A stretch of 64,000 bases of DNA from Bacillota bacterium (GTDB lineage Bacteria; Bacillota; Proteinivoracia; UBA4975; VEMY01). The notes below the pieces were generated by a model. It was not told the DNA's origin. It made no database searches and saw only the letters and a list, made by a program, of their open reading frames with translations. Shown in pieces: positions 20,113 through 57,688 of this stretch. A program made the translations under genes and the position numbers. The stretch's first letter is position 1. The number at the start of each line of letters is the position of its first letter. Location of the stretch: NCBI GenBank assembly GCA_009711825.1, contig VEMY01000001.1:143899-207898 (forward strand), in the 5' to 3' direction.

Positions 20113-20366
20113 ACAAAAAAAACGGCGGACCAATGCCTGCCGTTTTTGGCGATAATTGGCCTCATTCCCCGGGTGAAGTAGCTCACTGCTGCCGTCCAGG
20201 GGCGGACGACAACAGCAGTCCGGCAATTATTAATTGCCGGCCCAGCTGTCGGAACGGACGAACTCCGACGCTTCGGCGGCGGTTCCTTTCCTGTGCTTCA
20301 CTGCCCCGTCCGGGCTCCCCACAGTACTGATAACCAGCCGCTCCTCTACCTCACCTGCTGGTGAGG
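20113..20366 (-). promoter_or_regulatory. Lysine riboswitch (L box) with terminator, upstream of ddh2
   Basis: Reading the minus strand, P1 is formed by GGTGAGGTAG (20355-20346) and CTACTTCACC (20181-20172), which pair over all ten positions. Inside are the L-box landmarks: AGGAGC after P1, GGAAAGGAACCGCC, GCCGAAGC, the CTGGGCCGGCA region and GTGAGCTAC closing the core. About 25 bases after P1 a terminator follows: ACGGCAGGC and GCCGT arms with eight T (20146-20114). The layout is that of a transcription-attenuating OFF switch for DAP/lysine synthesis. Confidence 0.9.
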
Positions 20367-41685: not shown

Positions 41686-41769
41686 GTGAAAAGAAATGTT
41701 GTCAGAACAAAGCCTGTCAAAGCGTCTCGGGCCATGGCCAAGGCACGGCAAGCCAAGAAACGCAAGTAA
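41686..41769 (+). CDS. Tiny basic protein, 27 aa
   Basis: GTG at 41686 preceded by GGGGGGG at a 9-base distance; the frame reads KRNVVRTKPVKASRAMAKARQ and ends with AKKRK. It has 12 Lys/Arg in 27 residues. A terminator begins 10 bases after the stop, which supports a real transcript end here. It may be a nucleic-acid-binding or ribosome-associated microprotein; no family can be claimed. Confidence 0.45.
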   Translation: MKRNVVRTKPVKASRAMAKARQAKKRK

Positions 41770-41814: not shown

Positions 41815-42828
41815 CTAAACCAGGTATTCTAACTTTGCCTCCGGCAGCAAACGGGCCACTTCTGTGGCAAAAAAATCCCGGGCAACGCTGTATACATCTT
41901 TAGGGTAAACATACTTTCCGTAACCAAACTGACCGTATTTAAACGTACGGTCCTCTTTTTCCATCGGCAAGGTGGAGTCGGGGAAAATGTCCATGATGTT
42001 GTTTTTTGCCCGTTGGGTAAACCGATGTAGTATGATCTCTATGGTCAAATCGTGTTGGTCCCTGAGGCGCATGGCCAGCTCTTGGAGCAATTGCAGATAC
42101 TCGCCCTGCCAGCCCGGGGTCAGCACCACCGGTGCGATGATGACGCCCAGGGGGTAGCCGGCTTCAGCAACCTGGGCTAGGGCATTTAGTCTGCTGCCGA
42201 GATCAGGTGTGCCGTGTTCCCAGGCCTGAATAACCTTGTGGCTGTTAAGACTGAACCGGAATCTGGTGCGGTTGTTATGTTTAAGGCTGAGCAGGCTTTC
42301 CACCTGAGTAAATTTAGTCACAAACCGGAAGCGGGCGTCTGTTCGGTCGGCAAAGAACTGGATTGCCCTGGCCAGTAAGCCAGTGAAGGGTTCCAGAGGA
42401 ATTGGGTCGGAAGTAGCGGCGCCTTCAAACACAGTTACTTCCGGCTGACGCTCAACTATGTACTGTTCCGCCCGGGACAGTATTTCGTCGATATTTGCAT
42501 AGGCCCGCAAATACGGCTTTTTCCCCAGGCTGGTGTGCAGATAACAGTATTCACACTTCCCCGGGCAACTGCTGACCAGGGGCAATTGGTAATGGGCCGA
42601 GGGCTTACAGGTCTCAAAGGTTTTAGTGTTGCGCATCCGAACGGCCAGGACATTTTTCGCTTCCGACCAGGCCTTAGCTGCAGGGCTGTCGGGAATGCCG
42701 CTAATTCGATTGCCCTTGCCCATGATTTCCACCGGGATTTTTAAGGCGGTAAACTTGTCATACATCCGACGCCCGTACTCATAATCCAATGCTTTTTCTT
42801 CAAACAATACCCGTTTTGGCTGCCACAC
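41815..42828 (-). CDS. splB: Spore photoproduct lyase
   Basis: 337 residues from a GTG at 42828 with GAGGTGAT upstream. The radical SAM cluster is CPGKCEYCYL (Cys 88, 92, 95). Nearby LGKKPYLRAYANIDEIL and FVTKFTQVESLL match the family. It repairs the UV-induced spore photoproduct in DNA of germinating spores, using SAM and a [4Fe-4S] cluster. At the place of the Bacillus hydrogen-donor Cys141 this protein has Ala138 (EGAATSD), but it has Cys74 in TFETCKPSAHY. I recall that the Clostridium acetobutylicum enzyme also uses a different Cys, and Cys74 would fit that; I cannot verify it here. Confidence 0.93.
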   Translation of the reverse strand: MWQPKRVLFEEKALDYEYGRRMYDKFTALKIPVEIMGKGNRISGIPDSPAAKAWSEAKNVLAVRMRNTKTFETCKPSAHYQLPLVSSCPGKCEYCYLHTSLGKKPYLRAYANIDEILSRAEQYIVERQPEVTVFEGAATSDPIPLEPFTGLLARAIQFFADRTDARFRFVTKFTQVESLLSLKHNNRTRFRFSLNSHKVIQAWEHGTPDLGSRLNALAQVAEAGYPLGVIIAPVVLTPGWQGEYLQLLQELAMRLRDQHDLTIEIILHRFTQRAKNNIMDIFPDSTLPMEKEDRTFKYGQFGYGKYVYPKDVYSVARDFFATEVARLLPEAKLEYLV

Positions 42829-42883: not shown

Positions 42884-42941
42884 TTGACAAAAGGACTATG
42901 TGTTGATAACATATAGTATAGATATCTGTAAATAACAGATA
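42884..42941 (+). promoter_or_regulatory. Promoter with two palindromic operators for the Cys-rich protein gene
   Basis: TTGACA (42884-42889) and TAACAT (42907-42912) with a 17-base spacer. Palindrome 1, ACTATGTGTT-GAT-AACATATAGT (42895-42917), covers the spacer and -10. Palindrome 2, TATCTGT-AAATA-ACAGATA (42923-42941), covers the transcription start region. Both positions are suited to a repressor, for example a metal sensor. Confidence 0.7.
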
Positions 42942-42956
42942 GTGGGGGGTGGAGAT

Positions 42957-43064
42957 ATGTGTGGTTCCAAAAAAGGTTGTTGCCAAGATAATTCCGAGAA
43001 AAAGACTGTGTGCCAATGTGGGGGCTCTTGCCAAGAAGAAAAGCCCGGCACTGACAAAGAATAA
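42957..43064 (+). CDS. Small cysteine-rich protein, 35 aa (metallothionein-like)
   Basis: The ATG at 42957 has GGGTGGAG just upstream. The frame has six Cys in 35 residues, in the order MCGSKKGCCQ, then VCQCGGSCQEEK, giving CC, CXC and CX3C patterns able to bind soft metals. The tail is acidic and polar. A consensus promoter with two palindromes lies upstream and a terminator directly after, so it is a complete single-gene unit. No named family is recognised; a metal- or redox-buffering role is inferred. Confidence 0.65.
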   Translation: MCGSKKGCCQDNSEKKTVCQCGGSCQEEKPGTDKE

Positions 43065-43069
43065 ATTTG

Positions 43070-43093
43070 CTCCCGTATTGCGGGAGTTTTTTG
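43070..43093 (+). terminator. Terminator of the Cys-rich gene
   Basis: CTCCCG TATTG CGGGAG followed by six T. Confidence 0.85.
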
Positions 43094-43184
43094 TTGCACA
43101 AATTTTTTAGCAAAAATAAAGGAATAAGCCTGTACAGTGGCAAATACATAAAAGTGGAACCCGTAAAGAGAGGGAGTGGGAAAA

Positions 43185-43730
43185 ATGCGGGACGGTAAGA
43201 CTGTATGGCTGATTGATGCCGCGTACCTGTTCAATGCCCAGGAATCTGTCAGTCCCGATTATAATTTTGATTACCGGAAGCTGCGCGATAGATTGGAGCA
43301 GGACGGTTCTATTGATCGTGCCTATTACCTGAATAGCACTCCCAACCCGCCAACCGATGCCCAGAGCAGTTTTCATTCCTGGCTGCAAACTTCTCGCCCC
43401 GACGGCCCTCAGTTCCGGGTTCACCTTTATCAGCTAAAGGGCAGGGATTATGACTGTCCCCACTGTCACCGTAAGTTCAGCCTTCAGGTGCAAAAGGGTG
43501 TGGATGTGGGGCTGGCAACACTGATTGTGCGGTTGGCAAAGTATAATTATGATAACCTCATCCTCTCTTCGGGAGACGGTGACCTGAAGGATGCCATCGT
43601 CCATGCCAAGGAGCATTGCAACAAACGGTTTGAACTCTGCGTGTTTCGCTGGGGAGTGTCCCCCGAGCTGCAGTCCTATGCTGACAAAGTTCACTGGATT
43701 GATGATTTTGCCACAGAAGTGAAAAAATAA
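43185..43730 (+). CDS. NYN-domain protein (LabA/DUF88-like putative ribonuclease)
   Basis: 181 residues from the ATG at 43185, with GAGGGAGTGGG upstream. The PIN-like NYN fold is suggested by the conserved acidic residues: VWLIDAAYLFNA at the N-terminus, KGVDVGLATLIVRLA near residue 105, and LILSSGDGDLKDAI near residue 130. CPHCH near residue 90 is an added potential metal site. NYN proteins are thought to be metal-dependent RNases. The adjacent gene is a methyltransferase on the same strand. Confidence 0.82.
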   Translation: MRDGKTVWLIDAAYLFNAQESVSPDYNFDYRKLRDRLEQDGSIDRAYYLNSTPNPPTDAQSSFHSWLQTSRPDGPQFRVHLYQLKGRDYDCPHCHRKFSLQVQKGVDVGLATLIVRLAKYNYDNLILSSGDGDLKDAIVHAKEHCNKRFELCVFRWGVSPELQSYADKVHWIDDFATEVKK

Positions 43731-48507: not shown

Positions 48508-48544
48508 TAGCAGTGGGAAGTAAAAAAAATCACATACTATCGGA

Positions 48545-48752
48545 TGACGAATACGGGAGAGACCCTCTGGGCGCCGAAGGAGCAAACCGGCAGCTGCCCG
48601 GCTGTCGGCACTAACTCTCAGGCAAAAGGACCGTATTCCGACGAAACTCTGGAAAGTCCCAACGGGACACCGACGGAGCAAATCCCTATGTTTAGGGGTT
48701 AATCTCTCAGGTCCATAGACAGAGGCAGCGGCAATTATGTCGCTGTTTTTTA
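48545..48752 (+). promoter_or_regulatory. Tandem glycine riboswitch with terminator, upstream of the grd operon
   Basis: Aptamer 1 (about 48550-48640): CGGGAGAGACC, GCGCCGAAGGAGCAA, AACTCTCAGGCAAAAGGACCG. Aptamer 2 (about 48640-48725): GAAACTCTGGAAAGTCC, CACCGACGGAGCAAAT, AATCTCTCAGGTCC, AGACAGAGG. A stem CAGCGGCA / TGTCGCTG with six T at 48726-48752 forms the terminator. In relatives such tandem switches turn genes on when glycine is present, which fits induction of glycine reductase. Confidence 0.95.
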
Positions 48753-52492: not shown

Positions 52493-53791
52493 ATGAGCAA
52501 ATTGCGTATCGTCCATTACCTCAACCAGTTCTTTGGTCAGGTTGGGGGCGAGGACAAAGCCGACACTCCTCCTTTTGTCAAGGAAGGGCCGGTCGGCCCC
52601 GGCACTGCCCTGCAGGCCGCCCTGGCCGATCAGGCAGAAATAGTAGCCACGGTGATTTGTGGCGACAGTTGGTTTAATGAGAATATTGAGGATGCCCAAA
52701 AGCAAGTCCTGTCAATGATTTGCGAGCAGAAGCCAGATCTGGTAATTGCCGGCCCCGCGTTTAACGCCGGGCGCTATGGTGTCGCTTGCGGCGCGGTCGC
52801 CCAGGTGGTTAATCAGGAGTTGGGAATTCCGGTGGTCTCAGGCATGTATCCCGAGAACCCGGGCGTGGAGATGTACCGTAAGTACGCCTGGATTGTTGAG
52901 ACCGGTGACTCGGCTGCGGCCATGCGGAAGGCAGTTCCAGCAATTATCAATCTGGTTGGAAAGTTGATTGCCGGGGAGCAGCCCGAGAGCGGTTATATCA
53001 AGCGGGGTATCCGCCAGAACTACTTTGCCCAGGAGCGGGGTTCGAGGCGGGCAGTGGATATGCTGGTTGCAAAACTGAAGGGTGAGGGCTTTGAAACCGA
53101 ATACCCAATGCCCAGTTTTGACCGGGTGGAACCCCAGCCCGCATTAAAAGACCTGGCTAAAGCCAAGATTGCGCTTGTAACTTCTGGTGGCATTGTTCCC
53201 AAGGGCAATCCGGATCACATTGAATCTTCCAGTGCTTCAAAATACGGCAAGTATGATATCGACGGCGTCAACGATTTGACCGCAGAAACATTTGCCACTG
53301 CCCACGGCGGCTATGACCCCGTATATGCAAACCAGGACGCTGATCGGGTCCTGCCGGTGGACGTCTTGCGGGAACTAGAAGCAGAAGGCAGAATTGGTTC
53401 TTTGCATCGGTACTTCTACTCCACCGTTGGCAACGGAACTGCAGTGGCCAGCGCCAAGAAGTTTGCGATTGAAATTGCAGCCGATCTGAAGCAGGATGGT
53501 GTTGATGCCGTGATACTAACCTCCACCTGAGGCACCTGTACTCGTTGCGGTGCAACGATGGTGAAGGAAATTGAACGCGCCGGCCTGCCGGTGGTGCATA
53601 TGTGTACGGTTGTTCCGATTTCAATGACTGTGGGCGCCAACCGAATCCTGCCAACAGTGGCGATTCCCCATCCCCTAGGCGACCCGAATATGCCTGCCAC
53701 CGACGAAAAGGATCTGCGTCGCAAGCTTGTCGAAAAGGCGCTTGCGGCTCTGACAACTGAAGTAGAAGGTCAAACGATATTTGAAGACTAA
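52493..53791 (+). CDS. grdB: Glycine reductase component B gamma subunit, selenoprotein (in-frame TGA)
   Basis: 432 residues from the ATG at 52493 with GGGGGG upstream. Codon 346 is TGA (53528-53530), read as selenocysteine: LTST-U-GTCTRCGATM, the UXXCXXC site of GrdB/F/H. After it the frame continues HMCTVVPISMTVGANRI and IPHPLGDP to the stop at 53789. Together with GrdE it binds glycine and transfers the carboxymethyl group to GrdA. Without Sec decoding the gene would appear as two frames. Confidence 0.96.
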
Positions 53792-57453: not shown

Positions 57454-57527
57454 ATTTGTCACCTCGCAAAAATACTCTTTACCAGCTAAGCATAATCTGT
57501 TATTATCTAATTGACAATATTATATCG

Positions 57528-57688
57528 GTCATGGGGAGCCCCTGCCAGGGGCTGAGAAAGGGCTTATAGTACCTGACCCACAACCTGATCAGGGTAATGC
57601 CTGCGTAGGGAGAATTCACAAGCAAAACGCATCTCCCGGTGCGTTTTATGTTTTTGAAGCTGCAGGCACGCCTTAGGCGTGCTTTTTG
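57528..57688 (+). promoter_or_regulatory. TPP riboswitch (THI element) with expression platform, upstream of thiT
   Basis: The aptamer at 57528-57613 has GGGGAGCCC, GGCTGAGAAAGGGC, TACCTGACCC, ACCTGATCAGGGTAATGC and GCGTAGGGA, nearly perfect consensus. A hairpin AAAACGCA / TGCGTTTT follows at 57622-57648, then a terminator GGCACGCC TTA GGCGTGC TTTTT at 57664-57688. Expected behaviour: thiamine pyrophosphate terminates transcription of the thiamine transporter. Confidence 0.95.

Follow-up and report, generated by a model that had tools for sequence, protein, structure and literature searches.

A 35-residue cysteine-rich peptide gene in a Bacillota genome and its predicted control by a PhaQ-like PadR repressor

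The peptide gene and its neighbourhood

The window analysed here is the whole 64-kb stretch (64,000 nucleotides) of a Bacillota genome. Between a divergent gene for spore photoproduct lyase and a gene for an NYN-domain protein, it holds a self-contained single-gene unit that encodes a 35-residue peptide, with the following features.

41815..42828, - strand: spore photoproduct lyase gene, divergent (PF20903, E 8.7e-112; TIGR04070, 475 bits, cut-off 400)
42884..42889, + strand: -35 hexamer TTGACA
42897..42915, no strand assigned: operator 1, TATGTGTTGATAACATATA, overlying the -10 hexamer
42907..42912, + strand: -10 hexamer TAACAT, preceded by TG, spacer 17
42923..42941, no strand assigned: operator 2, TATCTGTAAATAACAGATA, just 3' of the expected start site
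42943..42952, + strand: ribosome-binding sequence TGGGGGGTGG, pairing with the 16S 3' end at -14.3 kcal/mol
42957..43064, + strand: ORF of the 35-residue peptide MCGSKKGCCQDNSEKKTVCQCGGSCQEEKPGTDKE, stop codon included
43069..43092, + strand: intrinsic terminator, a stem of 8 pairs followed by T6
43176..43730, + strand: NYN-domain gene, flanking the peptide unit on the other side

The anatomy of the unit is well supported. An earlier note on this DNA had claimed a consensus promoter, two palindromes over the -10 region and the start site, a good ribosome site, six Cys residues in 35 and a terminator directly after the gene, and all of these were found. The promoter (TTGACA-17-TAACAT) agrees with the consensus at 10 of 12 positions, a match that is not rare by itself, as two promoter-like sites were observed in the 64-kb stretch against 1.3 expected in shuffles. 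Of all 1923 ATGs in the window, 0.36% (that at 42957 included) have upstream pairing as strong as this ribosome site, and the terminator stem begins 4 nt past the stop codon, at 43069. The Cys residues (positions 2, 8, 9, 19, 21 and 25) are arranged as MC, CC and CxCGGxC, and 12 of the 35 residues are K, E or D.

Of the seven other genomes in the order, six carry the NYN gene (70-72% identical), and an intact 2-hydroxyacid dehydrogenase gene (67-71% identical) lies directly before it in five of the six relative loci; in locus L011 of genome G004 (2245-2437), the dehydrogenase before the NYN gene consists of two short remnants. Because neither the lyase nor the peptide could be found in any of the six syntenic loci, the block formed by these two genes was either gained in this genome or lost in the relatives. 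Spore photoproduct lyase itself is widespread: 179 of 398 genomes of the phylum have a match at E 1e-30.

Encoded divergently from a radical SAM enzyme, the Cys-rich peptide could in principle be a ranthipeptide-type precursor that this neighbour modifies. Such a role is very improbable here, since the neighbour is a true spore photoproduct lyase according to its TIGR04070 score (475 bits versus a cut-off of 400), and the peptide has no NCBIfam match at E up to 1. Some ORF with at least 5 Cys occurs in the loci of 9 of the 29 closest fetched relatives of the lyase, and on reading none of these Cys-rich ORFs resembled the window peptide. The marks of a ranthipeptide/SCIFF-type system, a match to a precursor model and a dedicated maturase, are absent from the peptide locus.

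Several further elements were observed in the window. A tiny basic ORF, MKRNVVRTKPVKASRAMAKARQAKKRK (41686-41769, + strand; 27 residues from GTG), lies between the dehydrogenase and the lyase, with a G-run on its 5' side and, by eye, a terminator-like hairpin on its 3' side; a similar tiny basic ORF of 22 residues follows the dehydrogenase in the relative locus L012 (1307-1375). A lysine riboswitch (20171-20356), two glycine riboswitch aptamers in tandem (48544-48724) and a TPP riboswitch (57522-57628) were also located, as was a SECIS_4 element (53531-53568), which would be in keeping with a glycine reductase-type selenoprotein.

Relatives and coding capacity of the peptide

Searches with the peptide returned only itself from 398 genomes of the phylum (E 0.01) and from 13 genomes of the class (E 0.1). 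Among eight genomes of its own order, one weak match besides itself was obtained (E 0.536), which was rejected as a homologous gene because it overlaps a longer open frame and is not gene-like on its own. Plasmids yielded one match (E 8) inside a helicase, the PDB yielded two (best E 0.18), and no family model of Pfam, NCBIfam or PHROG was matched at E up to 1. A search of contigs with short stretches of the peptide gave 72 matching stretches in genome contigs and 18 in viral contigs, none of which was confirmed; a pattern of the Cys scaffold matched 39 viral and 19 genome contigs and on reading gave no plausible homologue, one of its matches leading to the thioredoxin tails considered below. 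A DNA pattern for CxCGGxC had no match elsewhere in this genome. The peptide is an orphan within the searched sets, as judged by homology searches that overlook remote homologues of a chain this short. With no relatives found, conservation lends no support to translation or to the Cys positions. The earlier note had proposed that hairpins kept in relatives together with a lost peptide would point to an RNA; this comparison does not apply, as neither the peptide nor the exact operator pattern was found in the 12 other genomes of the class, and the six syntenic loci likewise gave no peptide.

Translation of the 35-codon ORF is nevertheless likely, judging from its sequence setting and composition, and the unit appears quite unlikely to be a non-coding or regulatory RNA in which the ORF is accidental. 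For an RNA speak the missing homologues of the peptide, a transcript that folds slightly better than shuffles (z -1.72; 8 of 200 shuffles fold as well) and codon usage. Every one of 338 windows of 35 codons taken from real genes has a higher full codon score than the ORF. Among 440 spurious ORFs, 53% score at least as high, and within the stretch itself a shifted frame and an antisense frame each do better; when synonymous choice alone is considered, 10% of the gene windows score below the ORF. Codon usage therefore does not support coding and counts against that reading, although the Cys-rich make-up of the peptide depresses the score. Against an RNA stand the very strong ribosome site close 5' of the ATG, a stop codon only 4 nt from the terminator stem, and a composition unlike that of all 439 other ORFs in the window (30-45 codons, out of frame with the 41 listed genes): at least 6 Cys occur in 4 of them, at least 12 K, E or D residues in 35 in none, and the combination of Cys and charge likewise in none. 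Moreover, operator sites of the same kind recur 5' of genes elsewhere. Operator 1, which covers the -10 hexamer, would lie outside the transcript of this promoter, whereas operator 2 could also form a 5' hairpin in RNA. No Rfam family exceeded its gathering score at the unit, and a search for RNA families gave two chance-level matches only (E 0.31 and 0.41). A compact, regulated small-protein gene, as the earlier note had described it, was thus rated likelier than an RNA, with its palindromes recurring 5' of genes in the PadR modules described below.

Operators and the predicted class of repressor

The two operators are dyads with 19-bp cores (TGT/ACA with 5 nt between), lie 26 nt apart and are identical at 17 of 21 positions as direct repeats. 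When the intergenic stretch was subjected to 20,000 dinucleotide shuffles, 95 shuffles contained at least two such dyads and none contained a pair matching as well as the real one, which has 16 of 21 identities in the register of that test. In the 3.09-Mb assembly, the pattern TATNTGTN5ACANATA occurs only at these two operators; a longer pattern, searched with up to 3 mismatches, added no further place and hit one of the two operators on both strands. Operators of the ArsR, CopY/BlaI, Rex, GntR, LacI, NrdR and phage-repressor types were considered and set aside, as their half-sites are by eye unlike those of the window. According to PMC3506622, the sites of the PadR protein LmrR are ATGT/ACAT inverted repeats with a spacer of about 8-10 nt. 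The window operators do not have this canonical form, and ATGT/ACAT at the LmrR spacing arises only when A and T occupy the variable positions (as in L122 and L126); by sequence, they are a related, shorter-spaced form of such PadR sites.

The earlier note had suggested looking for the palindromes near metal-sensor genes. A scan of 398 genomes with TATNTGTWNATAACANATA, allowing no mismatch, found 11 places in 10 genomes, of which two are the window's own and nine are others; the same pattern read backwards, used as a control, gave 6 matches. Five of the nine appear chance-like by eye: L121, L124, L125 and L128 lie inside ORFs, and L129 falls in a hairpin resembling a terminator. The other four (L122, L123, L126 and L127, the last two from one genus, so that at most three cases are independent) lie 5' of genes in modules that combine a PadR gene with a permease split between two ORFs. 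In all four modules, the PadR exceeds the PF03551 cut-off, and the second half of the permease exceeds that of ArsP_1 (46-58 bits, cut-off 32.3), whereas the first half stays under it (19-26 bits). The site in L122 lies 30 nt 5' of a Cys/His-rich ORF of 70 residues, which is weakly similar to DUF5320 (E 9.3e-5, under cut-off), and a weaker site (10/12) precedes the PadR gene by 12 nt. Tandem sites 17 nt apart were found in the wider L126 locus (two, in L163) and the wider L127 locus (three, in L164). The second permease half of L123 shows a weak likeness to the SO_0444 Cu/Zn exporter (22 bits, far under the cut-off of 300). The PadRs of L126 and L127 are 26% and 25% identical to that of L122. 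The expectation of metal-sensor genes was thereby replaced by a more specific answer, namely PhaQ-like PadR regulators and split ArsP_1-type permeases. These modules share their operator with the window, and L122, like the window, has a small Cys-containing ORF behind it; in the window, however, the operators precede the peptide gene and the flanks are the lyase and NYN genes, compared with permease and PadR genes in the modules.

In all of the module PadRs, the recognition helix reads [ILV]YRxL[RK], whereas most other PadR matches that were read have YP, YT or YG at this position. A protein-led search identified PhaQ, encoded on a Priestia megaterium plasmid, with the helix VYRTLRQLE, and upstream of phaQ the sequence TAGGTGTAAATTACACATA (11/12) overlies the -10 of a TTGACA-17-TAAATT promoter, in the same layout as in the window. 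The operator consensus was derived from the window's own two sites (12/12 each); the phaQ site represents the independent case. A site of 11/12 was found in none of 36 loci with other PadRs (helix read in 35, L173 being the exception), and in 62 background loci only the window's own two operators reached this score. Two loci with YR-type PadRs, L166 (Chloroflexota) and L174 (Pseudonocardia), have no operator site; L166 (CP069395.1) is on a Chloroflexota plasmid, where the PadR gene stands amid NifB/NifX-like, two ATP-binding, DUF59 and DUF5320 genes, which may be another metal-cofactor-like context, though without the operator.

Taken on their sequence likeness, the window operators probably belong with the sites of YR-type (PhaQ-like) PadRs, and this assignment to an operator class is well supported. 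An unrelated regulator that binds them, with a coincidental association with PadR genes, seems unlikely. It would account for a scan that gave only modestly more non-own sites (9) than its backwards control gave hits (6), for the two YR-type loci without a site and for the absence of a site at the PadR gene of this genome; it fits poorly with the position of four of the nine non-own sites 5' of PadR-module genes, with a phaQ site reached independently by way of the protein, and with the absence of the site from all 36 loci of other PadRs.

A profile built from the four module PadRs has its best match in this genome at G000:C63:15338-15670 (E 7.8e-35); no other match in the 13 genomes of the class is better than E 1.9e-16. 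This protein, the C63 PadR, is identical to the PadR of L122 at 50 of 111 aligned residues and to that of L123 at 48 of 107, and it exceeds the PF03551 cut-off (61.6 bits, cut-off 27); as PhaQ (TIGR02719), it scores 71.8 bits, under the cut-off of 139.35. It is the only YR-type PadR among the 30 loci fetched by the profile search, with the helix read in 5 of the 12 PadR matches of this genome. Its N-terminus, MTSTKNCITCRCPRRVHRFIEPC, contains NCITCRC (a CxxCxC motif) followed by EPC. In the 12 other genomes of the class, no peptide, no exact operator and no PadR as close as this one was found. The C63 PadR is the likeliest repressor of the peptide gene that these comparisons suggest. Its gene is unlinked to the peptide gene, no operator-like site above 9/12 was found in its 3.3-kb locus, and it is convergent to genes for a methyltransferase and for an LDCC motif putative metal-binding protein (NF040898, 51.6 bits, cut-off 30). 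The latter is very small and contains Cys, as does the window peptide, but it has one CC pair, whereas the peptide has six Cys and does not match the NF040898 model. PhaQ (PF03551, TIGR02719) resembles the C63 PadR in its YR-type helix and lacks its CxxCxC motif.

Proposed circuit and possible roles of the peptide

The preferred reading of the locus, with a probability of roughly 0.55, is that the peptide resembles a metallothionein and that a PhaQ-like PadR represses its gene. In the proposed circuit, a single-gene transcript would encode a soluble, intracellular, Cys-rich mini-protein, and a dimeric PadR repressor with the YR helix would hold the gene off: bound to both operators, it would cover the -10 and the transcript start and exclude RNA polymerase. 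The inducer may be an ion of a soft metal or metalloid, or else a compound that reacts with thiols. Its action on the Cys-bearing N-terminus would make the repressor leave the operators so that the peptide is made, and the six Cys of the peptide (MC, CC and CxCGGxC) may bind the ion or buffer thiols in the manner of a metallothionein. Translation, the identity of the repressor, repression, the inducer and metal binding are all predicted steps of this scheme.

The peptide is a small, Cys-rich chain with clustered Cys, probably soluble from its composition, as expected of a metallothionein, and it matches no bacterial metallothionein family model (Pfam, NCBIfam and PHROG at E up to 1). A metal or thiol role, which the earlier note had proposed, is indicated only indirectly, by associated genes: the LDCC protein, the ArsP_1-type permeases and the Cys/His-rich ORF of L122. 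This reading is weakened because the PadRs of L126, L127 and L166 have no Cys-rich N-terminus and because PhaQ, the one named member of the class, has no N-terminal Cys and responds to a polymer, not to a metal: PMC4947961 cites Lee et al. 2004 with a title according to which PhaQ controls phaQ and phaP by interacting with polyhydroxybutyrate.

Alternatively, the peptide might be a free version of the CxCGGxC-like tails of small TM0996-type thioredoxins and serve in electron or persulfide transfer instead of metal storage. N-terminal tails of this kind (CCCGGDC in L069, CCCCGSC in L077 and CCCGDCC in L078) occur on thioredoxins from one clostridium and from relatives in the class, and part of an ArsP_1 permease near the L077 thioredoxin (100 bits, cut-off 32.3) implies that the gene neighbourhoods overlap. 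The resemblance is nevertheless one of motif, with no alignable homology; the one intact thioredoxin of this kind seen in this genome (L075) has no tail; and the operator scan led to PadR modules and to no thioredoxin gene. Such a transfer role is therefore held to be unlikely. In the same genome, TM0996-type thioredoxin matches at G000:C8:12375-12591 (L087 and L089) form two neighbouring pieces in separate frames, so that the gene looks broken; beside it lie a full-length gene for an ArsP_1 permease and an ORF resembling ArsR.

With respect to known systems, the predicted metallothionein-like circuit follows the same logic as SmtB/SmtA and similar pairs, in which the gene of a small Cys-rich protein has its promoter covered by a DNA-bound repressor. 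The repressors of such pairs belong to the ArsR or CsoR families and their proteins are longer, whereas the window combines a PadR-type operator with a 35-residue peptide that has no Pfam match. A small Cys-rich protein under a dedicated repressor is therefore a known kind of arrangement, and it is the predicted class of regulator that is unusual. The PadR family is known mainly for responses to drugs, phenolic acids and polymers. The abstract of PMC3506622 names detoxification, virulence and multidrug resistance. Literature searches on PadR with metals, ArsP, Cys-rich small proteins or PhaQ found no account of this circuit. A broader and more tentative proposal, which we regard as possible but doubtful, is that PhaQ-like PadRs with Cys-rich N-termini act as metal or thiol sensors in anaerobes, and that TATNTGT-N5-ACANATA controls ArsP_1-type split permeases, Cys/His-rich small proteins and the present peptide as a metal-homeostasis regulon; as part of the same joint reading, a PadR would take the place of ArsR, CsoR or MerR sensors.

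An orphan small-protein gene is now paired with a predicted class of repressor and a searchable operator, which makes its function directly testable, and the operator offers a handle for finding unannotated Cys-rich mini-proteins. Should the PadR prove to sense metals or thiols, its family would gain a metal branch.
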